DNA from: Methanosarcina barkeri MS
GTDB taxonomy: Archaea > Halobacteriota > Methanosarcinia > Methanosarcinales > Methanosarcinaceae
Reading direction: 5' to 3'
NCBI RefSeq assembly: GCF_000970025.1
Contig: NZ_CP009528.1
Location: forward strand, 979,168 to 1,043,167
DNA: 64,000 bases
Every line of letters begins with the position of its first letter. The stretch's first letter is position 1. The notes beneath the pieces are model-generated. The model did no database searches. It was not told where the DNA came from and worked only from the letters and a program-made list of their open reading frames with translations. This document shows positions 668-38,011 of the stretch, one piece after another. Both the position numbers and the translations under genes were made by a program.

Positions 668-1386
668 TCATCTTGCAGGGCGGATAAGCATTAGTCCACA
701 TCCAAAACTTTTTGCTGGGCCAATCCCCTTGTAGAGTGCGTTTATTAGAGATTCAGGGTTTGTTACAGTTAATATCCCAGAAAAATCAATGGTACTTATA
801 TTTACACTGTGTTTCCCTTTTACCCCACGATTTTTATCTTTGGGCTTAAAGAACCTATTACATCGATAACCTGTAGCTATTACCTGCCCTTCCTCTACTT
901 CAAAACCATTGTTATCTCCTTTTTTTCTGAGCCATTCAAATCCCTCTTTCTGGACTATTTCGGGAACTTGAGGTCTCTTGTTTTTTGAAATAACTTCTTT
1001 TTCCATTCTGGTCTTTGCGTCCATCACAACATCATGTCGATGCTGATGAGGTTTCCCATTTTCATCCTCGTCCCATCTTGTTACAATAGGATTAGCTCTC
1101 AATGAAAAAACAAGCTTCTGACCTGTGGAAAGCAGAGGTTTGTATTCCTTTGATTCTATTTGCCATAAATCTACATTTGCTTCAGGTTCTTGCTCCGACA
1201 AAATATAAAATAAAGGAAAACCGTTTTTTTCATCCTGCCTGTACAAAAAATCCCTTTGTTTATCAGGGTTACTTGCAAATAGAGACCATATAATACGGTG
1301 AAATTATCTCCAAAATTCCAGGAGAGCTTCCAGAACTCTTTATTTGTCACAATATCAGGTTTTAAGTTTGCTTTACTTAGATACAT
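668..1386 (-). pseudogene. cas6e: Cas6e (CasE) crRNA endonuclease with a one-base frameshift
   Basis: Cas6e cleaves the pre-crRNA at repeat hairpins and stays on the Cascade head. The ATG at 1386 opens with MYLSKANLKPDIVTNKEFW, the family N-terminus. The same frame then runs off. The frame one base away continues as HRIIWSLFASNPDKQRDF and runs on into LRANPIVTRW and the Gly-rich C-terminal GIGPAKSFGCGLM. The two parts join at a run of three A (plus strand 1301-1303). One extra base would give GDNF followed directly by HRIIWSLF, the expected Cas6e sequence. The start lies 1 nt past the cas5e stop. Either the gene is broken or this is a homopolymer sequencing error; the rest of the protein shows no decay. 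Confidence 0.88.
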
Positions 1387-1387
1387 C

Positions 1388-2131
1388 TTATTCCCCCAAT
1401 TCCAGCATCGTATAGTGTTCTTTTCTATCAGCAAACTGCCACCTTTTTCGGCTCAGAGTAAGATCTCTGCGAGTAACCGTATGAACTGGTACAAGTCCGT
1501 CCTCTTCACCTTCCCAGTAAAGCCTTACTTGCCCTGATTTATTCAGTAATTTGAGAAATGCTTCACACTTAAACTCAGCTTTTTCGAGAGCTTCTTTTAG
1601 ACTTTCTCCACTAACTATTTGAGCTTCTACAGGCAGAGCTGGAGGACAGGACTTTCTTCCCAGATATAAGACAAACTCAGGCTCTTTTAATTTGTTTTCA
1701 ATCAGTTCCAAAGAATAGGGGCAACCTTCAGGACATTTTTCTTTTGCCCAGATAGCAATCGTATACAAAGAGTCGCTATAATAGTCTCTTGTAGAAAGAA
1801 CTGCTGTTAATTTCTCTTTCTCAACTGCAAGCTCATCTTTTCGGGAAAGAATATGTTTCTGCTTTTTTATCGAACTTGTCGAGGGGATCTGTGCTGTGTG
1901 ATAATCCCTTAAAAAAGTTCCCGGATAATTCACAAGCACGGCAAAGTTATAAGCTTCTGCAAGTTTCTTGTGTTTACCGTCTTCACTCCTTCTGATACCA
2001 ATTGCCGCTGCAAGAAGTCCCATCACTGACGATTTTGAAGGATGGTCATATGAAGGCCTATGTGTCCCTACAGCTATGTCTCCCCAGGAAGCAAGTGGTC
2101 CGTAAAGCCGAAAGAGAAGATATTTTTTCAT
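1388..2131 (-). CDS. cas5e: Cas5e (CasD), Cascade subunit
   Basis: 247 aa. Cas5e caps the 5' handle of the crRNA in the type I-E Cascade complex. The N-terminus MKKYLLFRLYGPLASWGD, followed by RPSYDHPSKSSVMGLLAAA, is the typical RAMP opening of the family, and the C-terminal VHTVTRRDLTLSRKRWQFADR also fits. It sits 21 nt downstream of cas7e and 1 nt upstream of the cas6e start, so it is probably translated with both. Full length for the family; no anomalies seen. Confidence 0.94.
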   Translation of the reverse strand: MKKYLLFRLYGPLASWGDIAVGTHRPSYDHPSKSSVMGLLAAAIGIRRSEDGKHKKLAEAYNFAVLVNYPGTFLRDYHTAQIPSTSSIKKQKHILSRKDELAVEKEKLTAVLSTRDYYSDSLYTIAIWAKEKCPEGCPYSLELIENKLKEPEFVLYLGRKSCPPALPVEAQIVSGESLKEALEKAEFKCEAFLKLLNKSGQVRLYWEGEEDGLVPVHTVTRRDLTLSRKRWQFADRKEHYTMLELGE

Positions 2132-2152
2132 AATTTCACCTTTCAGCTGGCT

Positions 2153-3241
2153 TTACTCTGCTACGAACTTCAAAACTTCTTGGAGTGATCCTTCCCCTGT
2201 GTAAGCGTTCATTTCAATTTTGTTTTCACAGCATTTTCCGTAAACGCTCTCAATTTTCTCATGAGTACTATTAAGTTCTTTTATGGCACTAGCAAGGAGA
2301 TCTTTTTCTTCTAGGGCTTTCAGGAATGCAACAGAAAGTGAACGTGGCTGCTGTTTTCCTTTTTCTGCCAATACGTACGAGGCATAAGCTCTTGAAGCAA
2401 AGCTATTTTGTTTTCCGGTAGGTGAGACTGTTAAAGCCGATTCTGTAAAAGCTTGGAGAGCTTTTTTAGTGAGTTCCCCATCTTCTCCCAGATTCTCTTT
2501 GAGTAAATCACGGTTTATGCATATATAAATATAAAACAGTCCTGCTGCGAACTCGGTTTCTCCTAAGTGTCCAGAACCCATGTCTTCTTCTCCATTATTG
2601 AGGTCGTCTACTGCCGTAAAGAAATCATCTTCGACTGCAACTTTATGGACTGTTATTGCATGGGAAACCTGCACCGCAGCTTCCACGTTATACTGAGTAT
2701 TAGCTGCAAGCATCCTTCCAAACATTGCAATATCAACGGCAGTATTATTCTTCCTCAAAATATTTTTATTTTCTTCCGTTAATTCCCTGCCGCTTTGTGC
2801 AAGATCTATAATTAACTTCTCAATAGTCCCTATTTCTTCAGGACTGAAGTGAGCAAGCTGTTCTATTTCAAATCCTTCTTTTTTCAATTTTCCAAAAACT
2901 GATGCAATCTGTTTTGAAATTTCTCCAGCTTTCTTTTCCTCCATTTTTGGATATGTAGTTGAAAACTCAGGTTTTCCTTCAAGAATATCAGTCAATTTTA
3001 CACCAGTTGTTAGGGCCTTGTACACAAAATTTCCCATTTCTTTTGTTCTGATACCTACATGACCTGAAAGCGCTTCTTTAAAAAGATCCGAAGCCCTCCA
3101 GGCTCTTTTCAAGCTTTGCGAAGAGATTCTCAGGCGCTGGGTCCCGCCCATTACTGCAGTCTTTGGCCTTCCGAGGTCGTCCCTGTTAAGGTTTGAAGGC
3201 GGGTACGATGTAAGTACATGCAACTGTATAAAGTCTGTCAA
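2153..3241 (-). CDS. cas7e: Cas7e (CasC), Cascade backbone
   Basis: 362 aa. Six copies of Cas7e form the crRNA-binding backbone of type I-E Cascade. The N-terminal HVLTSYPPSNLNRDDLGRPK and GGTQRLRISSQSLKRAWR are signature segments of the CasC family. The start is TTG at 3241, chosen because GGAGG lies about 8 nt upstream and the protein begins MTDFIQLHVL as in homologues. It lies 30 nt after cse2 and 21 nt before cas5e in one minus-strand operon. Confidence 0.94.
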   Translation of the reverse strand: MTDFIQLHVLTSYPPSNLNRDDLGRPKTAVMGGTQRLRISSQSLKRAWRASDLFKEALSGHVGIRTKEMGNFVYKALTTGVKLTDILEGKPEFSTTYPKMEEKKAGEISKQIASVFGKLKKEGFEIEQLAHFSPEEIGTIEKLIIDLAQSGRELTEENKNILRKNNTAVDIAMFGRMLAANTQYNVEAAVQVSHAITVHKVAVEDDFFTAVDDLNNGEEDMGSGHLGETEFAAGLFYIYICINRDLLKENLGEDGELTKKALQAFTESALTVSPTGKQNSFASRAYASYVLAEKGKQQPRSLSVAFLKALEEKDLLASAIKELNSTHEKIESVYGKCCENKIEMNAYTGEGSLQEVLKFVAE

Positions 3242-3271
3242 TTAATTTTCCTCCTTATATTTTTGAATAAT

Positions 3272-3778
3272 TTACTTTTTCTTTTCAACAGGTATATTTT
3301 CATAATATTTGTAAGCCAATCGCTTCTTTGTGCGCTTATTCCAGAAGTAAATGCTTTTTGCAAGATCGAAAATATTTACACGTTCATCTAAAAGCCGGAC
3401 TATGCGTATCATTGTTATAAACAGCTCATTTCTGTCTTCTATCGTGAGCAGTCTTCTAAATCGGAGGTCGCTTACAGCAGCTTTCTTACTTCCGAGTTTA
3501 GGTGTCGCCATTTGGGCTGGAAGACTTGAATTCGTATCATTGCTTTTTACATGAGAGAGAACACCAGCTATTGCAGCTAATGCTTCTTGGTTTATTCTGA
3601 ATCGGCTTAGCTTTATTCTCAGACTATGAAAAGAAGGAGTAAATGCAACTTCATTAATATTATGACAGTGTCTTAACTCTGCTCTCTTACCCCGACTTTC
3701 ATCAAGATTTTCCCACCACTCAAAAAATATCTGGCGGATTTCGGGGTCGGAAAAGGATATCGTGTTCTTATTTCCCAA
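3272..3778 (-). CDS. cse2: Cse2 (CasB), small Cascade subunit
   Basis: 168 aa, all-helical, of the usual Cse2 length. Two copies stabilise the crRNA-target DNA hybrid in type I-E Cascade. Recognised by position between cas8e and cas7e, by FFEWWENLDESRGKRAELRH near the N-terminus (residues about 18-37), and by the basic C-terminus. The start is TTG at 3778, with AGGTGA about 10 nt upstream; no better start exists. Lies 19 nt after cas8e. Confidence 0.88.
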   Translation of the reverse strand: MGNKNTISFSDPEIRQIFFEWWENLDESRGKRAELRHCHNINEVAFTPSFHSLRIKLSRFRINQEALAAIAGVLSHVKSNDTNSSLPAQMATPKLGSKKAAVSDLRFRRLLTIEDRNELFITMIRIVRLLDERVNIFDLAKSIYFWNKRTKKRLAYKYYENIPVEKKK

Positions 3779-3797
3779 TCTGGATCACCTGTATTTA

Positions 3798-5393
3798 TCA
3801 TTTTGTTGGATTCTTAAGAGGCAAATCTAAAATCTCCTTTACTTTTTTTCCGTTTTTAGAATTGTATTTGAGAAGGTCTCTACGGGCATCTGCTATGCGC
3901 TTAGGGTTTGCAATTCCTATGAAATCTGACTGGGAATATTCATCAAACAAATCCACAGCTTTCCTTGACAGATAATTCAACCATTTCAGCTTTGTTTCAG
4001 CTTTATTTTCTCCATTAAGTATTACTGTATGCAATTCATAGAGAATGTTATAAAATTCGGGTTCTGTATCTTTCCAGAATCGACTTTCTATGAAAGAAAA
4101 GCTTCCAGTTACTTTATGATCTGGGTCAAAGATTGCAAGTTTTATGCAACTTTTTATATTATTCAAAATATATTCAGAGATTTTTACCAGTTGTATTGTT
4201 GTTTGCTCGTAATCTAGTTTAAAATTCTCTTCTACCGTAATTAAGGGCATTTGCCCTTCATACCAACATCTTGTAAGAATATTATTGTGAATATCGTACC
4301 CGAAAAACCAAATTCGAGGTTCATGTTTAAAAAAAGAGTCTACATATGAAAGTTTTAATCTTCTTTCATGGAATTTGTGAATTGTTAAGGCATTTTCCCC
4401 TATTTCACTGCTGTTAAAAACAAATCCAGGCCAGTATTTGTAGGTTATTCCTCCTTCATTCATATGATAGGGAAATTTTCTATCTTTATTGTTGTAATAA
4501 GGAGTAAGTGGGTGCCTCCACAATTCTCCATATGCCTCTCCATAGGATTTGGTAAAATAACTGCTTATCGGATTTTTTATTTTAGACCCACAAACATCAC
4601 ATACGCAGTCTTTTTCATCTGGGGGATAGTCGACTACTATTCTTCGAGGCATAGCCCAGAAAATCCGTGCAGGATTTACATTGGAAAGGGAAACCTCTCT
4701 GCCATTTTCACTTGTACGGGTTGGTGCCATCCAGGGAAAAATATCGGTATCATTAATTTTCATGGCGTTTCCGTGTTTTTCATTATTAAATTCTTCACTT
4801 TCAATAATATTTAACCAGATAGTTTGCCAGAGATATTTTCCTCCAACTATTGTTGTTAGTGGTCCACTTCCTCTTAATGATGTACGATGCCCACGCCCTC
4901 CTTGAGGTGCATTTGTCTGTAATGTGAATAGAGCCATGGCAAGGCAGGGTCTACAAATCTGTTTTACGGTCCCACTTTTTATAAATAGATCTCTTCCCTG
5001 GCTCTCAAGCAAGAGCATTTCAATAGGAAGTTCATCTTTTTTCTTAAAATCTTCAACCTTAAGCTCATAATCCTGCATAAAACGTGCTCCATTTCCATCA
5101 AGATCAAAAGCATGAGCCACTTTTTCAAAGGCATTTTTCAAGACTTTTGGAGACGGTGGATTCATCAACACATTTTTCCAGGCTCTTTCATCCGTTGGAG
5201 GCATTGTTGTTTGCACAAGGCCTATAAGAAACTGTATAAGTGCTCCATTAAAATCGGGACGAGAAAATGCCAATTCCACAATTTGGTTTTCTAATTCGAG
5301 GTCTTCAGTAAGCTGCCAGGGTGCAATGGTTTCTTTTGTTCCATCCTTTTTTTGGACTGGTATCCACTTTTCGTGAATCAGATTAAATGCGAT
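3798..5393 (-). CDS. cas8e: Cas8e (Cse1/CasA), Cascade large subunit; apparent ATC start
   Basis: About 531 aa. Cse1 recognises the PAM and recruits Cas3. The conserved N-terminus reads AFNLIHEKWIPVQKKDG, and the middle carries a zinc-type pair of CxxC motifs around DCVCDVCGSKI. The first canonical start in frame is a GTG at 5279, which would remove about 38 conserved residues. The frame is open upstream to the cas3 stop with no ATG, GTG or TTG. An ATC codon at 5391-5393 lies 6 nt after a perfect GGAGG, exactly where the start should be, so I place the start there. It may be a non-canonical start, a mutated start or a sequence error. The spacing to the cas3 stop is 15 nt. Confidence 0.9.
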   Translation of the reverse strand: MAFNLIHEKWIPVQKKDGTKETIAPWQLTEDLELENQIVELAFSRPDFNGALIQFLIGLVQTTMPPTDERAWKNVLMNPPSPKVLKNAFEKVAHAFDLDGNGARFMQDYELKVEDFKKKDELPIEMLLLESQGRDLFIKSGTVKQICRPCLAMALFTLQTNAPQGGRGHRTSLRGSGPLTTIVGGKYLWQTIWLNIIESEEFNNEKHGNAMKINDTDIFPWMAPTRTSENGREVSLSNVNPARIFWAMPRRIVVDYPPDEKDCVCDVCGSKIKNPISSYFTKSYGEAYGELWRHPLTPYYNNKDRKFPYHMNEGGITYKYWPGFVFNSSEIGENALTIHKFHERRLKLSYVDSFFKHEPRIWFFGYDIHNNILTRCWYEGQMPLITVEENFKLDYEQTTIQLVKISEYILNNIKSCIKLAIFDPDHKVTGSFSFIESRFWKDTEPEFYNILYELHTVILNGENKAETKLKWLNYLSRKAVDLFDEYSQSDFIGIANPKRIADARRDLLKYNSKNGKKVKEILDLPLKNPTK

Positions 5394-5408
5394 GTTTTTC
5401 CCTCCTTC

Positions 5409-8165
5409 TTACTTTTCTACACTTAAGCCCATTTTCTGTTTATAGCGTACATGTACTTCGTTATTGTATTCATCTACAGCAATACCTGTCCATTCATTGT
5501 CGCTCGCTGGGGACATTGGGACAAGTATAGACCACTTTCCTTTGTCCGGCATTGAATCCAATGCTTTTTTGACTTCAACTTTCAGTGTTTTTTCATAGGT
5601 TCTAGATTTTTTAATCTTGCTTTTTCTTACACTTACTTGGCTTAGTTCCCAGGAATAGCGCTTATCTTTAAAAAAAGGAGTAAGATGTTTTCCATTCCAC
5701 TTTGCAAGTCTAACTAATAGCGTTTCTTCACCAAGTCGGGTTGGCGTTATTAGATCATCAACCCATTGAGTAAGTGTCCTTTTGTATTCTTCCTGAAAAT
5801 TCAATGAATTCAGATTAGCCGCATCAATTTTTGCCCTTGATTCTCCTTCCGCTTTATCTTCCCATATCCTTAAATTTGGAGCAACTGTTTCTATTGAATG
5901 TTCTCCAAAAACACCCTCAATTAGAAAACGCAAATCTTCAGGGACAGTAAATTGTCCTCTTTCCGCTAGCAGACGAGCTGTAAGCCAGAGTTTACCATGG
6001 TTAGGGTATACGAAGGCAGCTTTAGGGAAAAAGTCAGCATACCAGTTTTCCGGTGGATTTTCGGTAAGCTCTGGAGAAAAAATGCCAAATACGGGCACTC
6101 TCTGGCTACCATGTTTCGAGTGCCGCTGGAGTCTTCCTACCCTTTGAATTAGCAGATCGATGGGTGCAAGATCACTTATCATATAATCAAAATCAAGATC
6201 CAATGATTGTTCTATTACCTGAGTTGCGATCAGGACTCTTCCTTTGCGTGTAGATTCATTGGATTCTTTTCCAAAAGTCTTCAAAACTCGATTCTCGATT
6301 TCTAAGCGCTCGCCCATGACAAAACGAGCATGGAAAAGATCTACTTTTTCTTCTCCCAGTATGTTTACGAGTTTTTCATAAGCATCAACTGCATCATCGA
6401 CAGTATTTCTTATCCAGCAAACACACTTGCCTTCTTTTGAGGTACTAACAATCTTTTCTTCGACTGAAACCTGTTCATTAAAAAATTCTACATAGATTGT
6501 TCTTCCAGTTCCTTCGCGAGTGCCAATTTGAATTTCTTCTGTATCCATCTCACTTACATGAGTCAGGAGCGGATAAGCTGTTTCTTTTAGACTTCCGCAG
6601 GCTACTCCTAATCCTTTGCAAAAGCTATCTGTCAATCTCTGTCTGAGTTTTGCAGGAATAGTTGCAGAGAGCAAAATTGCGCTGCCCCCTAGAGAGGCAT
6701 GAAGTTCAAGTAATTTACATAATAAAGTGTTCATGTATGAATCATAGGCATGAACTTCATCAACTATCAGTACACTGCGAGTCAAACCAAGTATTCGAAG
6801 GGACTGGTGGTATGTAGGAAGAACTGCCATTATAGCCTGGTCTACAGTTCCTACTCCTACATCAGCTAATAGCGCCTTTTTTCGGCTGTCTGCAATCCAT
6901 CTGCTGCACTGGGCAGAGATCGTTTCATCTTCTGTGGTTCCAATCCTGCTGTATTGTTTAAGCTCTTCTACTTCGCTAAAACCTATTGAAGTCCGAAATT
7001 CATCAGAAAGATAGTTCCCGCTGTGAGCTAACACTAGCGAAGGGTCTGAATTTTCCTGGTAAAAATTTCTGTAGGTCCTTACCAGCCTTTCATACATCGC
7101 ATTGGATGTTGCCATAGTTGGTAGTGCAATAAATATACCATTAGCAAGCCCCACTGACATCAGTCTGTGTGCAAGAGTTAATGAAGCTTCAGTTTTTCCA
7201 TTTCCTGTTGCTTCTTCGATTATGAAGAGTTGAGGAATCTTTTCTATGGGACACGAAGATACATGTAACTGCAGTGGACTTGGAGTCTTAATATTAGGGA
7301 ACAGAACTTCCATTCCTGTATTCAAGGAAACTGTAGAAGGCAAAACTCCAGAGTCATATAGAGCTTCCTTGGCGTTTTTAAGTGCATGCCGGTTCCAGTA
7401 TTCCTCAAGTGGCATCGGCTCAGAAATATATTTGAAATAATTGTTATTGGACCCTATCCAGTCACACAATACAGTAAGACCTGCAAGTAACCAGGACGAC
7501 TTTTTGAATTTTAATATCAGATTTTCAAAAGGATCTCCACTGTCGTCATCTCTTATTGCAGCATTGAAGTCTGTACCTGAAAACAACTGGAGTACACTTT
7601 TTACGAAAATATAAGCAATCTCAGTATCTTCTTCCGTGAAAAGTTCTTTGCAGTTTACAGGAACGCCGTGAATTTCATATTCCGGAGGTTTTCCATGATG
7701 GCCAGCAACTGCTTTTATCAATGGTTCAATCGCTAGATCCCAATCATAGATGTCATAATCCAGATTATTTAAATTAAGACAATTTTCATCCCACAATCTC
7801 TTCCATATGGAATTCCATAAGAAAAATCCCATACTATCATGCCGCAATATATAGGCCCTGTTACTCTCATGATGGCGGAGTTCTTTTAACAGTTCTGGCT
7901 TAAGGTTCTGAAACCTTTCTGAAAATTTTCCTAAGTCATGAACAGTTAGAATAAAAGGGATTAGAGATAGAGTTTCTTCCTTGTTGAAGCCTGTTAATTC
8001 TGTAATTTTTTTTGCTAAAAGCTTATCTTTTTCTAATAATACAGTCCCAACAGCTGCAACATCCAGACAGTGATATACAAGTAAGTGATAATTAGTTTCT
8101 TTGTCTTCAATAGAGCAGGATTTTCCCCAATTATTAAGCATTAAATTATTGCATAAGTTGTTCAT
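5409..8165 (-). CDS. cas3: Cas3, HD nuclease-helicase of type I-E
   Basis: 918 aa. Cas3 is recruited by Cascade to unwind and degrade target DNA. The HD nuclease domain is N-terminal: His32/Asp35 in YHCLDVAA and His76-Asp77 in TVHDLGKFSERF. The SF2 helicase follows, with Walker A EEATGNGKTEAS (about 317-328), Walker B DEVH (469-472), SAT in LLSATIPAK, and motif VI IQRVGRLQRHSK. All key residues are present. It is the first gene of the operon; the ATG at 8165 faces the csa3 gene across a 175-nt AT-rich gap. Confidence 0.96.
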   Translation of the reverse strand: MNNLCNNLMLNNWGKSCSIEDKETNYHLLVYHCLDVAAVGTVLLEKDKLLAKKITELTGFNKEETLSLIPFILTVHDLGKFSERFQNLKPELLKELRHHESNRAYILRHDSMGFFLWNSIWKRLWDENCLNLNNLDYDIYDWDLAIEPLIKAVAGHHGKPPEYEIHGVPVNCKELFTEEDTEIAYIFVKSVLQLFSGTDFNAAIRDDDSGDPFENLILKFKKSSWLLAGLTVLCDWIGSNNNYFKYISEPMPLEEYWNRHALKNAKEALYDSGVLPSTVSLNTGMEVLFPNIKTPSPLQLHVSSCPIEKIPQLFIIEEATGNGKTEASLTLAHRLMSVGLANGIFIALPTMATSNAMYERLVRTYRNFYQENSDPSLVLAHSGNYLSDEFRTSIGFSEVEELKQYSRIGTTEDETISAQCSRWIADSRKKALLADVGVGTVDQAIMAVLPTYHQSLRILGLTRSVLIVDEVHAYDSYMNTLLCKLLELHASLGGSAILLSATIPAKLRQRLTDSFCKGLGVACGSLKETAYPLLTHVSEMDTEEIQIGTREGTGRTIYVEFFNEQVSVEEKIVSTSKEGKCVCWIRNTVDDAVDAYEKLVNILGEEKVDLFHARFVMGERLEIENRVLKTFGKESNESTRKGRVLIATQVIEQSLDLDFDYMISDLAPIDLLIQRVGRLQRHSKHGSQRVPVFGIFSPELTENPPENWYADFFPKAAFVYPNHGKLWLTARLLAERGQFTVPEDLRFLIEGVFGEHSIETVAPNLRIWEDKAEGESRAKIDAANLNSLNFQEEYKRTLTQWVDDLITPTRLGEETLLVRLAKWNGKHLTPFFKDKRYSWELSQVSVRKSKIKKSRTYEKTLKVEVKKALDSMPDKGKWSILVPMSPASDNEWTGIAVDEYNNEVHVRYKQKMGLSVEK

Positions 8166-29176: not shown

Positions 29177-30103
29177 TTGAAAAATAAAAATGTAGTAGTC
29201 ACAGGTGGAATGGGTTTCATCGGTTCCCATCTTACTGAGAGGCTACTTGAGGATAACGAAGTAACAGTTATTGATAACGAATCTACAGGTACGATTGAAA
29301 ATATAAGGCATCTACTGGGCCACAAAAATCTAACTGTAATACAAGGCAGTATAGTAGACTTGAATTTAACAGAAATATTCAAAGACAAAGATTACGTTTT
29401 TCATCTAGCTGCAATTCCCAGTGTTCCAAGAAGTGTGAAAGATCCTTTTAGTTCAAACAACTCTAATGTCACAGGAACACTGAATGTTCTGATAGCTGCA
29501 AAAGATGCTGGAATTAAGAAAGTAATCTTTTCTTCGTCCTCTTCGGTGTATGGCGATACGCCAACTCTCCCGAAAAGAGAAGATATGCCAATAAATCCGA
29601 TGTCTCCATATGCAATTACAAAAGCAACCGGAGAAATGTACTGCAGGGTTTTTCAGGATCTTTATGACCTTCCAACAGTCAGCTTAAGATATTTCAATGT
29701 TTTTGGCCCAAGGCAGGACCCCAATTCTCAATATGCAGCTGTGATTCCAAAATTTATAACTGCAATTTTGAATGATGAAAGTCCTGTGATATATGGAGAC
29801 GGAGAACAAAGCAGAGATTTCACTTTTGTCAAAAATGTTGTTGATGCGAATATTCTTTCCTGTGAGTCTAAGAAAACTGGAGTTTTCAATATAGCATGTG
29901 GTCGAAGAATTACAATTAATCAATTAGTTGATTACATTAATGAAATTCTGGGAAAAAAAATAAAATCAGTACATGCGGAACCAAGACCAGGGGATATTAA
30001 GCACTCATTAGCAGATATCTCAAAAGCTAAAGAATTTGGATATAACCCAATTGATAATTTTAAGAAAGAACTTGAAAAAGTAGTACAGTGGTTCACAAAA
30101 TAA
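29177..30103 (+). CDS. NAD-dependent nucleotide-sugar epimerase, WbpP/GalE-like SDR
   Basis: 308 aa. It probably interconverts UDP-GlcNAc/UDP-GalNAc or UDP-Glc/UDP-Gal forms at C4. The extended-SDR features are GGMGFIGSH (residues about 9-17), SSSSSVYGD and the catalytic [11 protein letters not shown] (YxxxK). [19 protein letters not shown] matches the C4-epimerase group. The start is TTG at 29177 with AGGAGGG 8 nt upstream. Downstream of the dehydrogenase in the same transcription unit. Confidence 0.88.
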
Positions 30104-30572: not shown

Positions 30573-31829
30573 ATGAATCAAGATAACTATGAATATATTA
30601 TTCAGCCATCCCATCTTAAAGGAAAAGTAAAGATAAGTGGAGCAAAAAATAGTGCTTTGAAACTTCTTACTGCTTCGATACTAACAGAAGAAAAAATAGA
30701 TCTAATGAATTATCCTGCAAAATTACTTGACGCTCAAATTCATGTCGGCATGTTAGAAGCTCTAGGGAAGAAATGCATTATAAATGACGAAAAAATAGTT
30801 ATTTCTGAAAAAGAAGTTCCTTCACCAATTTTAGATTGGAGTAAACGTTCAATTCGTAATACCCTGCTTATATTAGGTGCATTAGTAAGCCGTATAGGCG
30901 AAGCGAAAGTCCCCCTTCCCGGAGGGTGTGATCTCGGAGAAAGAAAATTTGATTTACACGAAATGATTCTCACGAACATGGGGGCAAAAGTTTGGGTTGA
31001 AAATGATATGCTTTGTGCCAAAGCAGAAGATGGGCTAAAAGGTACCGATATATTTTTACCTATTCGTTCAACAGGTGCTACTGAAAATGCAATAATATGT
31101 GGATGTTTGGCTGAAGGTATAACTAAAGTTTGGAACCCTCATATTCGTCCTGAAATTTTAGATTTAATTAATTTTCTTAATAAGATGGGTGCAAAAATCC
31201 AGGTATTTGGACAGGAACATATAGAAATTACAGGGGTAGAAAAATTATATGGAGTTAAATATTCTGTAATTCCTGATAATATGGAAGCGATTACTTGGTT
31301 GATTGCTGCAGTAATTACAGGTGGAGATATTGAAATTATTAATTTTCCTTTCCGAGATCTTGAAGTTCCATTAATACATCTTCGTGAAAGTGGAGCAAAG
31401 TACTATATTGGTGACAATAGTCTGATCGTAAGAGGGGGAACCCCCTATCCAATAGAGATTAGCACCGGCCCTTATCCGGGAATTAATTCGGATATGCAAC
31501 CTTTATTTGCTGTTTATGGCGCCTGTGCAAAAGGTAGTTCCAAAATTATTGATTTACGTTTCCCTGGTAGATATTGTTATGCAAGTGAACTGGCCAAAAT
31601 GGGCTTGCAATATAATATCAACGGTAATATACTGGAAATCATCGGTGGGAATCCCCTTAATGGTGCTCAAGTAAGAGCTCTTGACCTCAGAGCTGGTATC
31701 GCATTAGTGTTAGCTGGGCTGGTGGCAAAAGGTGAGACCCGGATCTTAGATGCCTGGCAGATTGAAAGAGGATACGACAATTTTATAGAAAAATTAATTT
31801 CACTGGGGGGAAATGTAAGATATGGATAA
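30573..31829 (+). CDS. murA: MurA: UDP-GlcNAc 1-carboxyvinyltransferase
   Basis: 418 aa, full MurA length. MurA transfers enolpyruvate from PEP to the 3'-OH of UDP-GlcNAc. The two-domain inside-out barrel is complete. Lys25-Asn26 in ISGAKNSALKLL, the catalytic Cys119 with Arg124 in PLPGGCDLGERKFDLH, Asp307 in NSDMQPLF, Arg333 in GRYCYASEL and Arg399 in ERGYDNFIEKL match the bacterial active site. GAAGGA precedes the ATG. It overlaps murB by 8 nt. The host type has no murein, so the product should feed another lactyl-sugar polymer. The pair may have come from bacteria; the AT-rich composition is like its neighbours. MurA rather than AroA is indicated by the Cys motif. Confidence 0.92.
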   Translation: MNQDNYEYIIQPSHLKGKVKISGAKNSALKLLTASILTEEKIDLMNYPAKLLDAQIHVGMLEALGKKCIINDEKIVISEKEVPSPILDWSKRSIRNTLLILGALVSRIGEAKVPLPGGCDLGERKFDLHEMILTNMGAKVWVENDMLCAKAEDGLKGTDIFLPIRSTGATENAIICGCLAEGITKVWNPHIRPEILDLINFLNKMGAKIQVFGQEHIEITGVEKLYGVKYSVIPDNMEAITWLIAAVITGGDIEIINFPFRDLEVPLIHLRESGAKYYIGDNSLIVRGGTPYPIEISTGPYPGINSDMQPLFAVYGACAKGSSKIIDLRFPGRYCYASELAKMGLQYNINGNILEIIGGNPLNGAQVRALDLRAGIALVLAGLVAKGETRILDAWQIERGYDNFIEKLISLGGNVRYG

Positions 31830-32778
31830 AATAAATAATTTGATTAATAAAAATCTAGGAGACATTTGTTTAAAAGAGCCTCTTTCAAAGCACAGTAGCT
31901 GGCGGATTGGTGGTCCTGCAGATGTTTTAATTGAACCTTATACTATCGAACAGATACTCGAAATAATACAATATGCCAACTTAATGAAAATTCCTACAAT
32001 GGTTATAGGGAATGGAACAAATTTACTTTTTTCTGATGAAGGTTTTCGTGGAATTATAATAAAAATGGGTAAAAACTTTTCTAAGTATACTATTAGGGGT
32101 AAAAAGGCTTGCGCAGAGGCAGGTATCTGGACTCCAAAATTTGCAAAAATATTATCAGATAGTGGTTTATCAGGTCTTGAACATACCATTGGAATTCCAG
32201 GCACCCTTGGTGGACTTATTTTTATGAATGGAGGGAGCGGTGGAAAATGCATAGGAAACGTTGTCAAAAAAGTATGGGCTATTGACAAGAATTATGACTT
32301 AATATCTTTATCCCAAAAAGAATGTGATTTTTCTTACAGAAAATCAGTATTTCAGGATTCAGATTATATTATTTGTAAAATTGAGCTAGAATGTGAATTT
32401 GGAGAAAAAGAAAGAATAAAGTCTGAAATGAGAAAAATACTGGATAATCGTAAAAACAAGTTTCCACTTAATTATCCCAATTGTGGATCTGTTTTTTTAA
32501 GTAATCCTATTGTGAACGATATTTTTGCACCTCCCGGAAAGTTAATTGAAGAAGCAGGTTTAAAAGGTTATCAAATAGGTGGTGCTCAAATCTCGGAAAA
32601 ACATGCCAATTTTATAGTAAATCTGGGGAATGCCACTGCTAAAGATGTGATTTCTATTTTCCAATATATCCGAAAAGTTGTATATCAACGTTATGGACTT
32701 TGTTTAGAAAGCGAAGTGAGGTATGTAGGAGAGCTGGGAAGTCTCAGATCGTTGCATGAGGTTGGAAAAATTGAATAA
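31822..32778 (+). CDS. murB: MurB: UDP-N-acetylenolpyruvoylglucosamine reductase
   Basis: 318 aa. The FAD enzyme reduces the MurA product with NADPH to UDP-N-acetylmuramate. The FAD-binding part shows SSWRIGGPADVLIEP, VIGNGTNLLFSDEGFRG and GLEHTIGIPGTLGGLIFMNG. The substrate domain has the catalytic Ser223 in NCGSVFLSNP, then PGKLIEEAGLKGYQIGGAQ, and the catalytic Glu in LESEVRYVG near 298. It overlaps murA by 8 nt and the next gene by 23 nt, so the three are translationally coupled. Length and the short C-domain suggest type II MurB. Confidence 0.92.
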   Translation: MDKINNLINKNLGDICLKEPLSKHSSWRIGGPADVLIEPYTIEQILEIIQYANLMKIPTMVIGNGTNLLFSDEGFRGIIIKMGKNFSKYTIRGKKACAEAGIWTPKFAKILSDSGLSGLEHTIGIPGTLGGLIFMNGGSGGKCIGNVVKKVWAIDKNYDLISLSQKECDFSYRKSVFQDSDYIICKIELECEFGEKERIKSEMRKILDNRKNKFPLNYPNCGSVFLSNPIVNDIFAPPGKLIEEAGLKGYQIGGAQISEKHANFIVNLGNATAKDVISIFQYIRKVVYQRYGLCLESEVRYVGELGSLRSLHEVGKIE

Positions 32779-33319
32779 AGATGACCTCAAATATAGTTTA
32801 AAAAACTGCTTGAAAGATATAAATCAAGATTTAGTTTTCTACGGTGGCAAAAACTTATTGAGTAAGGTTACGATCTTTTTTTTGAATATTTCTTTTAAAC
32901 TGATATTTTGGTATCGTATTTCTAGATATTGTTATTTAAAATCGAAAATGACCCGTAGAGCTCTCGTTTTTATTAAATATCGACAATATCTTCTTGGCGG
33001 CAATGAAATCGATTATAGAGCTAAGTTAGGTAAAGAAATAAAATTTGCTCATCCTTCAGGTGTAATTATTGGAGCGGGAGTGGTTATTGAAGATAAAGTT
33101 ACAATTTTTCAACAAACTACATTTGGAAGCCATGGGCATAAAGATGAACCCAAGTCCTATCCCACAATAAAACAAGGAGCAATAATTTATTCTGGGGCAA
33201 AAGTTATAGGTGGAATAACTGTTCATGAAAATGCTGTAATTGGTGCAAATTCAGTTGTACTGATCGATGTACCTAAAAACTCAACTGCAGTAGGAATTCC
33301 TGCAAAAATAATTGAATAA
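32756..33319 (+). CDS. LbH serine acetyltransferase-like acyltransferase
   Basis: 187 aa. A helical N-terminal part (about 1-75) precedes a left-handed beta-helix with hexapeptide repeats (HPSGVIIGAGVVIEDKVTIF, then VIGANSVVLIDVPKNSTAVG). It resembles serine acetyltransferases, but in this context it more likely O- or N-acetylates a sugar or lipid-linked intermediate. It overlaps murB by 23 nt and is followed by a flippase 13 nt after its stop. Confidence 0.82.
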   Translation: MRLEKLNKDDLKYSLKNCLKDINQDLVFYGGKNLLSKVTIFFLNISFKLIFWYRISRYCYLKSKMTRRALVFIKYRQYLLGGNEIDYRAKLGKEIKFAHPSGVIIGAGVVIEDKVTIFQQTTFGSHGHKDEPKSYPTIKQGAIIYSGAKVIGGITVHENAVIGANSVVLIDVPKNSTAVGIPAKIIE

Positions 33320-33332
33320 CGTAGGGTATAAA

Positions 33333-34640
33333 ATGGTAAAGAACTACAGTTTGGCAAAAGATGGCATATCTGTTTTTGGCACTCAGATGTTGACATTAAT
33401 TATAAGTTTCGTATCGGGAGTACTACTTGCGAGATGGCTTGGACCTGCGGGAAGAGGGGCCTTTACGGCTCTTTTAGTTTATCCTGCAATCTTGATTAGC
33501 CTTTTAAGTCTGGGAATGCGCCAGGCAACTGTTTATTATCTTGGTAAACAAAAGTATTCAGAGTCAGACATTGTAGGTGTAACATTATTATTACTTATTT
33601 CATCGAGCATAATTGGAGTTTTAACTTCAGTTGCAATAATTTCGTACACTAAAAATCCAGATTATAACCTAATGTTAATATTACTTGCGTCACTAACAAT
33701 CCCTGCAGATCTGACTATAAATTACTTTACTGGGATTTTAATCGGCAAACAACAAATAAATAAATTTAACAAAGTAATGTATTTGGTACCTATAATTAAT
33801 TTTGTACTCATTACTTTTTTAGTATTTTTTATCAAATTAGATATATTAGGCGCAGTTTTAGCCACACTGATTGCCAAAATTGTGCTTGCTATATACGCCT
33901 TGTTATCGATTAATAGTGAATATTCTTTAAAGATATGCTGGAAATCCGAAATAATTACAAAAATGGTTTCTATAGGATTTATTTATGCTTTTTCATTGTT
34001 TATCTTGAATCTTAATTATAGAGTAGACATAATCATACTTGAACGCTTAAGTAATGTTACAGAAATAGGTCAATATACAATAGGAGTTGGTTTTGCTGAA
34101 TTATTATGGCAGCTGCCGACGGCTTTTGGACTAGTTATTTTTGCATATAGTGCAAACTCAAAAAATTCAAATAAATTTTCTCAAGATATTGCAAAAATGG
34201 TAAGAATCATTTTCCCTGTTGTCCTTATCGGGTCAGTGTTCTTATATTTTGCAAGTGGATATATAATTCCTTTTTTGTATGGAGAAGAATATATTCCAAG
34301 TATCAGAATGCTAAAAATATTGTTACCTGGAATAGTTATGATGAGTTTTTTTAAAATTATTAATATGGATCTGGCTGGTCGAGGGAAACCTGATATTACT
34401 ATAAAACTATTTTTACCAGCTGTTTTAATCAATATTGTGCTTAATATAATTTTAATACCAGATTTTGGAGGCTGCGGTGCTGCTTTTGCTTCAACCATTA
34501 GTTATACGCTTGCATCAGTATCTATTTTGTATTACTATATGAAAATTACTCAATTAAGTTTAAGTGATATATTTATTTGTAAAAAAAGTGATATCAATTT
34601 TATTTTAGGATTGATTCACGTGTCACCGATTAAACGTTAG
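33333..34640 (+). CDS. Oligosaccharide flippase, PST/MATE family (Wzx-like)
   Basis: 435 aa with about 12-14 membrane helices. Such proteins move lipid-linked oligosaccharide across the membrane. The N-terminus reads NYSLAKDGISVFGTQML and then FVSGVLLARWLGPAGRGAF, a hallmark of the family. ATG at 33333 after TAGGG is preferred to the TTG at 33312. Last gene of the murA-murB operon, which suggests that the lactyl-sugar product is exported on a lipid carrier. Confidence 0.88.
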   Translation: MVKNYSLAKDGISVFGTQMLTLIISFVSGVLLARWLGPAGRGAFTALLVYPAILISLLSLGMRQATVYYLGKQKYSESDIVGVTLLLLISSSIIGVLTSVAIISYTKNPDYNLMLILLASLTIPADLTINYFTGILIGKQQINKFNKVMYLVPIINFVLITFLVFFIKLDILGAVLATLIAKIVLAIYALLSINSEYSLKICWKSEIITKMVSIGFIYAFSLFILNLNYRVDIIILERLSNVTEIGQYTIGVGFAELLWQLPTAFGLVIFAYSANSKNSNKFSQDIAKMVRIIFPVVLIGSVFLYFASGYIIPFLYGEEYIPSIRMLKILLPGIVMMSFFKIINMDLAGRGKPDITIKLFLPAVLINIVLNIILIPDFGGCGAAFASTISYTLASVSILYYYMKITQLSLSDIFICKKSDINFILGLIHVSPIKR

Positions 34641-34936: not shown

Positions 34937-36115
34937 TCAAGTAGTTTTAAGTTTTGGGATTAGTTTATTGCAATAAACCATTCTGAAATATTGAGTTAAT
35001 ATGTCGAATATACTAAGATGCATTTTATATTTTGCTTCGTTATAAATCTTGCAATATCTGTTGAGCTGACTGCTGATTTCAAAATTTTTACTTGAAACTC
35101 GTTTTATAAAACTAGTAATATTATTTGCATATTCTTCATTGACTAACGCTTGAAAAATTTGTTTATAATTATCATCTGGATCAAAATTATCAATAGTTAA
35201 TCTACTTGAAAAGTTTTGATCAAAAGCACTTTGAAAATTTTCTTCTGTAATTAATAACGGATAATTTGAATTCTTTAAGGGGCATAGCATAATCTTCCCC
35301 TTCAATGCAGCCTCCATAAAGCTTCTTCCGCCACCAATAACAAAGTCTGCAACATCAATTAGCTGACTCGCGTTAATTGTGTACTCGTCATCTGTGAACA
35401 GGTAAATATTATTATCCATATTCTTTTTTATTTCTTTACCAACATTTACATCTTGGAGAGCTCCAATAATAATTAACTTAGTTTTTATCCCATCATAGTT
35501 TAATTTTTTTACAAGATCTATTGCCTGTAGTATGTCGTTCTTTTTGTATTCTTCAAGCCTGGAAATTATTAGAAATACTTTTGATTCATTGCAATCTGCT
35601 GATAACTTTATGTTTTTTATTCTTGAAAAATCTGAAGGAATTTCCCTGATTCTATTTGGAATAAAAAATAGATTTGTTTTTTTAAATCTTCTTGAAGACT
35701 GATAAAACCTAACGTCTTCTTGAGAAAACAATATTAAGTTATTCACTTTTGGAAAAGCTATCCTTGAATTTGGACCTCCACATTTCGTATGAATATATGG
35801 TTTTTTTGAAATATTACTGATTAAACTTCCAAAAAAGAAAGTATCTTCATCAAAACTGTGAATAACTTGAGGACACTCAATATCAATAATGTTTTTCAGA
35901 TCTTTCATTACTTTAATAACACTTATTTTTTCATAGATCAAATTATATACCTTTACTTTTGACTGATTTATAACCGGCGACTCTCTTTTTCCGATAACAA
36001 CTATAGCACAATCCAATTTTTTACTAATTTCTTCAGCAGTAGTTCTTAAACTATAATAATGCCCTCCCCTTCCCGAGTGAGGATCCATTGTCGAGATTAA
36101 GTATAACACTTTCAT
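34937..36115 (-). CDS. GT4-like glycosyltransferase
   Basis: 392 aa. GT-B fold protein opening KVLYLISTMDPHSGRGGHYY with the Gly-rich acceptor loop; the C-domain has FLIISRLEEYKKNDILQAIDL. The usual E-x7-E donor motif is weak here (GGGRSFMEAALKGKIMLCPL), so donor binding may differ. The first of a minus-strand block that runs to 43.7 kb; convergent with the flippase gene. Confidence 0.8.
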   Translation of the reverse strand: MKVLYLISTMDPHSGRGGHYYSLRTTAEEISKKLDCAIVVIGKRESPVINQSKVKVYNLIYEKISVIKVMKDLKNIIDIECPQVIHSFDEDTFFFGSLISNISKKPYIHTKCGGPNSRIAFPKVNNLILFSQEDVRFYQSSRRFKKTNLFFIPNRIREIPSDFSRIKNIKLSADCNESKVFLIISRLEEYKKNDILQAIDLVKKLNYDGIKTKLIIIGALQDVNVGKEIKKNMDNNIYLFTDDEYTINASQLIDVADFVIGGGRSFMEAALKGKIMLCPLKNSNYPLLITEENFQSAFDQNFSSRLTIDNFDPDDNYKQIFQALVNEEYANNITSFIKRVSSKNFEISSQLNRYCKIYNEAKYKMHLSIFDILTQYFRMVYCNKLIPKLKTT

Positions 36116-36214: not shown

Positions 36215-38011
36215 TTAAGGTTTGATAATATAAATGTCTGTGAATTTATCGGAGTAAAATTTAACAACTCCAGCGTCATTATCTAAGTGCACAAAGTCAC
36301 TATAATTAAAACTCCATCTGTCTTCAAATTTTGGCAATATTTCTTGATCCTGGTTTCTACCAATATAATTAATCATTAGGTATGATTTGTTATAAGAGTC
36401 ACTTAACGAAGAATTGTTATCGTATCCAAAATGCTTGATAACTAGATCGTCATGAAGAATATCTTTTTTCTTAGTGCCTGATACTCCATAAATTGCATTA
36501 TGAACCCTATGGTTTACTGTTCCACGTTCCAATACAGGATAATCATTTTTTACCTCATAAAATGTTTTCATTGCAGAAAACTCGCTCTCTGGGGTCTGTT
36601 GATCTGTTTTTAAAATTGCAGGTGACAAAAATAAACTATATGTGGATAAACTCGTGATAAGTATCAAAAATAAAGATATTACTACCAATACTTTCAAGTT
36701 ACTTTTATTTTTATTCGAAGGTCTTCTCAGAAACATACTTATTGAAAAAGATATCAAGATAATAGAGAAAAATATTGAATAACTATAAACTCTTATGAAA
36801 CCAAATTGATCATTAAAGAAAAATAATAACACTGAGACACATATCAGTAATATCCACCCTAATATTGAAAGTTTATGATAATAATTCATTTTCATATTAT
36901 ATTTTTTCCAAAAAGTAAGTATGTATATTATGCAGATGACAGAAAGCATGGATAATAAGACGTAGGAACCGTATATACTTAGTACTAGTCCGACAATTTT
37001 CAGAATAGATATATCGACAGAACTAACAGAAGTTTGATATCTCCCAAATTCAGAGCCGCCTCCGTCACTGGATATTAATGTAAACACTATATTTTCTATA
37101 CTGTATGCAAGAATATGTAAATATGAAGACCATACAAGAAAGGAACATATCATAATTGATAATAAATTAGTTGATTTTTTTATTTTAACTTCAGAATTTT
37201 TGGTACTATTAAAATACATAGTAATATCAGATAATAGAATCGTTACTGTAAGCAAAATTGTGACTAAAGGATGAGAAAATATTATAAAAAAACTAAGTAG
37301 AATTAACAGAATCGAATATGATGCAGCGTTCTTTGGTAATCTCGATTTAAAAAAGATATAAAGAAATAAAGGGACAAAAAGAATTGCTTGCCCATTAGGG
37401 CTAAGCATAACATTTTTACTGCCAAGTAATAGTATCGAAGAAAATGCTAACATTATATATAGATCACGTTTATTTTTAAATATATATTTCCCAAGAATAT
37501 ACCATGAAAATATATATAATAATGAATAAAATATAGGTAAAAACATAGTAATATCGTTATAACTTAAACCAGAGAAGGATTTTAGTGTAAAACCTATTAT
37601 GTGAAGCATGGGATAAGGGTTAGAAATAATATTATGTTTATTCTCAATATCAACCATATAACCAATATGAGTTAAAACATCTTCCCTGCCATGTATGAAA
37701 TATCCTCTGATAATCGGCATACACAATAAAATTAGATTTGAAATAATTATCATTAAAAAACCAATTAGCCAACTATTATTCTCATACTTGGAAACTGCGT
37801 TATATATTAATATCATCTGACCTATGAAAATAGCTATAACAATAAGGATCCAAAAATATTCCGGATACATTTTGTATATTGAAAAACCATATGCACTAGG
37901 GGTATGATTGTTAATTATAATAGCTAAGGCTGATAATATTATTATAAACCCAAATATTGATGCTAATTTTATGTATCTAGGGGTATTAATGTACTTATCT
38001 TTGGAGCGCAC
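36215..38011 (-). CDS. Polytopic membrane protein, GT-C-like or polymerase
   Basis: 598 aa with about a dozen membrane helices and a soluble C-terminal tail. The first large loop has RGYFIHGREDVLTHIGYM, an acidic Arg-Glu-Asp motif that suits a GT-C-type active site; PNGQAILFVPLFLYIFF follows. It may transfer sugars from lipid carriers or polymerise repeat units; the family is not certain. Start GTG at 38011, with AAGGA about 7 nt upstream. Followed downstream by a GT4-like gene. Confidence 0.65.
   Translation of the reverse strand: MRSKDKYINTPRYIKLASIFGFIIILSALAIIINNHTPSAYGFSIYKMYPEYFWILIVIAIFIGQMILIYNAVSKYENNSWLIGFLMIIISNLILLCMPIIRGYFIHGREDVLTHIGYMVDIENKHNIISNPYPMLHIIGFTLKSFSGLSYNDITMFLPIFYSLLYIFSWYILGKYIFKNKRDLYIMLAFSSILLLGSKNVMLSPNGQAILFVPLFLYIFFKSRLPKNAASYSILLILLSFFIIFSHPLVTILLTVTILLSDITMYFNSTKNSEVKIKKSTNLLSIMICSFLVWSSYLHILAYSIENIVFTLISSDGGGSEFGRYQTSVSSVDISILKIVGLVLSIYGSYVLLSMLSVICIIYILTFWKKYNMKMNYYHKLSILGWILLICVSVLLFFFNDQFGFIRVYSYSIFFSIILISFSISMFLRRPSNKNKSNLKVLVVISLFLILITSLSTYSLFLSPAILKTDQQTPESEFSAMKTFYEVKNDYPVLERGTVNHRVHNAIYGVSGTKKKDILHDDLVIKHFGYDNNSSLSDSYNKSYLMINYIGRNQDQEILPKFEDRWSFNYSDFVHLDNDAGVVKFYSDKFTDIYIIKP

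Follow-up and report, generated by a model that had tools for sequence, protein, structure and literature searches.

A pair of murA- and murB-like genes in Methanosarcina barkeri MS lies in a block that we consider likely to be a horizontally acquired surface-polysaccharide module, in which the acceptor of the MurA paralogue (MurA*) is probably not plain UDP-GlcNAc. The window, the whole stretch of 64,000 nucleotides that was analyzed, corresponds to positions 979168-1043167 on the main contig of a genome of 4.57 Mb (two contigs, 99.9% complete). The four ORFs of the original prediction (murA, murB, an acyltransferase and a flippase) were all found where it had placed them and are tightly packed (Table 1), with overlaps of 8 nt between murA and murB and of 23 nt between murB and the acyltransferase. 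The 13-nt gap predicted between the acyltransferase and the flippase exists if the latter starts at the ATG; the TTG start gives an 8-nt overlap in its place. Pfam and NCBIfam name the four products, in order, EPSP_synthase/MurA, MurB, an EpsC/CysE-like hexapeptide acetyltransferase and a Polysacc_synt flippase. The flippase is of the Wzx type, its match to MurJ being marginal. A Wzx flippase, glycosyltransferases and nucleotide-sugar genes, components of a Wzx/Wzy-type cluster, are all present at the locus.

Table 1. Genes of the murA-murB block and its flanks (window coordinates)
Feature	Coordinates	Strand	Remarks
nucleotide-sugar 6-dehydrogenase, 580 aa	27402..29144	+	nearest UDP-HexNAc dehydrogenases; syntenic, upstream
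SDR epimerase	29177..30103	+	nearest UDP-GlcNAcA C4-epimerase TviC; syntenic, upstream
murA-like enolpyruvyl transferase (MurA*), 418 aa	30573..31829	+	polysaccharide-cassette clade
murB, FAD-dependent enolpyruvyl reductase, 318 aa	31822..32778	+	R173, S223, E298 kept
left-handed beta-helix (hexapeptide) acetyltransferase, EpsC/CysE-like	32756..33319	+	also beside bacterial MurA*
Wzx-type polysaccharide flippase	33312..34640	+	TTG start 33312 or ATG 33333
glycosyltransferase, GT-B fold, GT4-like by structure (HepE, BshA, MshA)	34937..36115	-	recurrent in MurA* cassettes

The window MurA scores 400 bits against NF006873 (cut-off 297) and 383.9 bits against TIGR01072, just below the cut-off of 392.7; scores for TIGR01072 across the MurA* clade range from 344 to 396 bits, on both sides of that cut-off. 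MurB reaches 314 bits with NF010480 (cut-off 259) and 241 with TIGR00179 (cut-off 145), and it contains the FAD domain, the MurB_C domain and the catalytic Arg, Ser and Glu. All of these MurA and MurB family scores are well above anything expected by chance. The MurA residues named in the original prediction (Lys25-Asn26, Cys119, Arg124, Asp307, Arg333 and Arg399) are all present, together with R95, D371 and R373. Ser223 of MurB and a Glu of its ESEVR motif are likewise kept. The conserved Glu is the second one, E298, found in 27 of 27 aligned sequences; the first, E296, varies. The structure model of MurA* fits MurA, including MurA-UNAG complexes, with a TM score of 0.92, and no member of the MurA* clade was found among solved structures. 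A misannotated AroA is not the explanation, since AroA is encoded elsewhere in the genome and MurA* scores some 300 bits higher as MurA than as AroA.

The murA-murB pair occurs in 5 of the 31 genomes of the genus, namely the window genome and those of four other species, one of them M. spelaei. In these four, MurA is 83-92% identical and sits in the same block, and the order of sugar dehydrogenase, epimerase, murA, murB, mostly the acyltransferase, flippase and convergent glycosyltransferase is shared by all five. Judged by AroA, the window genome is most closely related to these four (92-95% identity); two draft genomes with an AroA identity of 92% are without the pair. Because the upstream sugar dehydrogenase is found in ten genomes of the genus, some of them without murAB, the pair is an accessory addition to it. 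The small contig of the assembly matches the M. barkeri 227 plasmid at 100% identity over 86% of a 20-kb query, and this match, with the synteny in four other Methanosarcina species, bears out the archaeal host that had been predicted. The four syntenic relatives, the two-contig genome and the native upstream genes rule out a contaminant contig. The patchy occurrence, with MurB in 5/31 genomes, might still be read as that of a silent or decaying bacterial import with no role. We regard this as very improbable, as the frames are open, the catalytic residues and operon overlaps are conserved in five species at the MurA identities given above, and the conserved neighbors fit one pathway.

Several further features of the carriers were observed. 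A hydrophobic ORF of 598 aa (36215-38011), conserved in all five, had no Pfam or NCBIfam match and might encode a polymerase or ligase that acts on the glycan. An extra SDR epimerase stands directly 5' of murA in two of the five (L017:11321-12256 and L020:6204-7172), as it does in several bacterial cassettes, and the window has a 469-bp gap at this place. The host plasmid (L164, G000:C1, 41.7 kb) encodes a polysaccharide biosynthesis protein, a glycosyltransferase and WecB (wecB), and these polysaccharide genes are related to plasmids of M. vacuolata and M. barkeri Wiesmoor.

The search of the host genome for a transpeptidase (PF00905) returned no match, and the only Mur-ligase domain was one weak Mur_ligase_M match of 28.9 bits. 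The full set of Mur ligases and the transpeptidases of a peptidoglycan pathway were thus not found there, and for these reasons the block is not one for peptidoglycan synthesis. The predicted setting is supported: a MurA/MurB operon of bacterial origin, linked with a flippase and a glycan cluster, in an archaeon without murein. MurA and MurB do catalyze the first two murein steps, but it is hardly credible that they are here a remnant or an early stage of a pathway to murein or pseudomurein. Apart from the missing transpeptidase and Mur ligases, MurA* groups with paralogues of polysaccharide cassettes and not with canonical MurA, and the makers of pseudomurein are said to be without MurA and MurB (PMC12996149). 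The same 2026 pseudomurein paper states that both proteins are absent in methanogens, a record that the intact murAB of M. barkeri corrects.

When 84,980 species genomes were scanned with the archaeal MurA as query, 28 loci at 58-89% identity were returned, in Bacteroidota, Pseudomonadota, Verrucomicrobiota, Actinomycetota, Spirochaetota, Thermodesulfobacteriota and Omnitrophota; the archaea among them were Natrinema pallidum and M. spelaei. The clade members in bacterial surface-polysaccharide clusters are 58-69% identical to the query. An independent tblastn search of plasmids gave seven replicons at 58-65% and then none above 40%, with an annotated murB beside MurA* on two of them (Qingshengfaniella and Agrobacterium). 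Each of the 20 bacterial genomes checked has a canonical MurA besides MurA*, and 18 of the 20 have two MurB; Natrinema has the MurA* paralogue and no canonical MurA. In the tree, a 100/100 branch separates the MurA* clade from canonical MurA. The five Methanosarcina sequences group together (100/99), with an Opitutales contig as their sister (99/96); that of Natrinema branches apart from them. MurA* was present in one of 125 Natrialbaceae, and a search of 393 genomes of the phylum with a clade profile found it in 4. The supported branches force at least two archaeal acquisitions, one in Methanosarcina and one in Natrinema. Since there are few archaeal sequences and these lie nested, we infer transfer from bacteria, with the root of the clade not fixed by the tree. 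The search of archaeal genomes and the trees proposed with the original prediction revealed the pair in other archaea and pointed to a bacterial origin, but the clade proved to be spread over many bacterial phyla that own canonical MurA and MurB, so that the pair is no archaeal peculiarity. By its sequences, MurA* is a distinct mobile clade, not the archaeal form of the enzyme that serves peptidoglycan synthesis.

The genes around MurA* were counted within 5 kb at 22 non-redundant loci. MurB was found at 17 of these, Wzx at 11, the GT4-like glycosyltransferase at 10 and the hexapeptide acyltransferase at 9; at 4 loci of the clade MurB was absent in the DNA examined. The MurB partners do not form one clade: that of Methanosarcina groups with 13 cassette MurB (100/99), those of Bacteroidota cassettes are another lineage (100/100), and that of Natrinema pairs with Opitutales (92/92). 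Thus, MurA* is the constant part of the cassette and MurB the part that has been swapped. The convergent glycosyltransferase of the window had no significant Pfam or NCBIfam match; it has invariant GGH, KxGG, PNR and GR..(M)E motifs, and its model (pLDDT 89.6) matches GT4 enzymes that use UDP-sugars. Where this GT4-like protein is missing, a GT2 enzyme is often found 3' of MurB. Other cassette variants include a sulfotransferase or a methyltransferase-like protein.

We then compared the acceptor pocket, as read from the alignment, in 32 members of the MurA* clade and in 21 canonical MurA from the same genomes (E. coli numbering). The residues K22, N23, R91, C115, R120, D305, R331, D369, R371 and R397 are present in 32/32 clade members. 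All 32 also have A92N, V161R, V163T, T304S, V327R, E329P and N330G, and 30 of them have E188R, the clade residue being R or Q; P303N and F332Y are further acceptor-side changes fixed in the clade. Canonical MurA has V163 in 21/21, E188 in 21/21 and E329 in 20/21. The canonical pocket (V163, E188, V/I/M327, E329) is accordingly replaced in MurA* by T, R/Q, R and P. The patterns used in the scan span window residues ~55-62 and ~184-191, and A185P, A186H and L56M were thus partly selected by the search; the pocket positions relied on here fall outside them. Positions 120-124, 160-163, 305 and 327 are given in UniProt as contacts of MurA with UDP-GlcNAc. Docking based on 1UAE has Glu188, Val161, Val163, Pro303, Asp305 and Val327 lining the pocket (PMC11628175). 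The gain of three arginines points to an acceptor that is more anionic.

Given a pocket changed throughout the clade, UDP-N-acetylmuramate is a possible but unproven product of MurA* and MurB. The view that the product is simply this compound, as first predicted, is not supported, given the many fixed differences and the canonical MurA and MurB owned by the bacterial hosts. Muramic acid is not known from the walls of M. barkeri. That the pair makes ordinary UDP-N-acetylmuramate for an exported glycan, with the pocket a product of drift or regulation, would agree with the retention of all catalytic residues, with the fit of the model to MurA-UNAG complexes, and with two bacterial precedents: the capsule of Vibrio vulnificus ATCC 27562, for which muramic acid amide-linked to serine and a transferred locus with archaeal-like proteins have been reported (PMC7247339), and the lipooligosaccharide (LOS) of Psychrobacter arcticus, which contains muramic acid (PMC4515632). 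We nevertheless find this rather doubtful. The pocket changes are fixed across at least six phyla and are clustered at acceptor-contact positions, and peptidoglycan has been reported absent from M. barkeri walls (Kandler and Hippe 1977, cited in PMC11111885). Furthermore, the bacterial hosts already make UDP-MurNAc by their canonical enzymes, and for this reason the cassette probably has a different product, or makes the same one under separate control. Some Gram-positive bacteria keep MurA1 and MurA2, both of which make UDP-MurNAc, and a second MurA copy does not, therefore, prove a new acceptor.

The reading that we favor is that MurA* and MurB build a lactyl-ether amino sugar on a UDP-sugar that is modified and perhaps acidic. 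From the genes and residues described we infer the following reactions. The acceptor of MurA* would be an anionic or otherwise modified UDP-HexNAc, and our guess is UDP-GlcNAcA or UDP-GalNAcA, either of which could be supplied by the two upstream genes for the dehydrogenase and the epimerase. Near MurA*, five bacterial sugar dehydrogenases are TviB-type UDP-GlcNAc dehydrogenases, three of them above the curated cut-off; some others resemble, by eye, ordinary UDP-glucose dehydrogenases, and this likeness makes the guess of a uronic-acid acceptor a weak one. A lipid-linked repeat unit would receive the lactyl-ether sugar from the GT4-like glycosyltransferase, might be decorated by the acyltransferase, and would be flipped outward by Wzx for a capsule-like glycan. 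The basic idea of the original prediction, a lactyl-ether sugar for an exported glycan, is retained, but recast as a mobile cassette with a probably changed acceptor. More specifically, and as a tentative proposal, MurA*/MurB* might make a nucleotide sugar not described before, in which an amino-uronic acid or another modified UDP-HexNAc bears a 3-O-lactyl ether; many bacteria would make it from a mobile cassette, and so would archaea after at least two transfers, with the sugar as part of their surface coat.

With the MurA and MurB of bacterial peptidoglycan (TIGR01072, TIGR00179) the archaeal pair shares the fold, the catalytic residues, the order of reactions and the NCBIfam matches. It differs in its ~38% identity, in the separate MurA* clade with an altered acceptor pocket, and in its location in a polysaccharide cluster of a host without the rest of murein synthesis. 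The V. vulnificus capsule and P. arcticus LOS are surface glycans other than murein that contain a lactyl-ether amino sugar, as proposed here, whereas the archaeal glycan is predicted from genes. Methanochondroitin is likewise an exported matrix of amino sugar and uronic acid in the same organism (Methanosarcina), but its published repeat has no lactyl sugar and murAB is limited to a subset of the genus. The genes of methanochondroitin have not been identified (PMC12369344). NikO of nikkomycin synthesis is another MurA-fold enolpyruvyl transferase recruited to a different acceptor (UMP), although it is more distant in sequence and lies outside polysaccharide loci; it was rejected as the nearest kin of MurA* (165 bits, versus 299-355 for MurA). 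Our literature search returned no described MurA paralogue of polysaccharide clusters and no report of murAB in M. barkeri. The MurA* clade and its presence in archaea thus appear to be undescribed in the searchable literature, and muramic acid in bacterial capsules is already known.

The analysis exposes a separate MurA clade whose members are annotated as belonging to peptidoglycan synthesis. Should the clade use a different acceptor, the annotation of many bacterial genes is wrong and acidic sugars of a new class are yet to be isolated. In soils and sediments, muramic acid commonly serves to mark bacteria, and an archaeal source would matter there too if true muramic acid is made. M. barkeri can be cultured, so the question is directly testable.

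Some related loci were seen in other archaea. A contig of a Methanosarcina draft (L022, G159:C167, 8987 bp) carries a MurA beside ORFs that are MurC- and MurD-like by eye; it is probably a bacterial contaminant, and the MurA tree places its MurA with canonical MurA. In a genome of the same order (G002, 56% complete, in which MurB was not found), a MurA-like gene with a canonical-type pocket (L023:7208-8500) shares its contig with genes that look archaeal (by eye, HisG, UMP kinase and replication factor C). Two haloarchaea, G453 and G466, have a divergent MurB homologue that adjoins a polysaccharide pyruvyl transferase (L025:8327-10481 and L026:8752-10831; PF04230 was confirmed for L025, and L026 was assigned by sequence likeness), with a Wzx-like flippase nearby and no MurA. 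This arrangement is a hint that a lactyl or pyruvyl sugar might also be made in a different way. Within the window itself, the minus-strand ORFs at 668-8165 resemble, by eye, a type I-E CRISPR cas operon.
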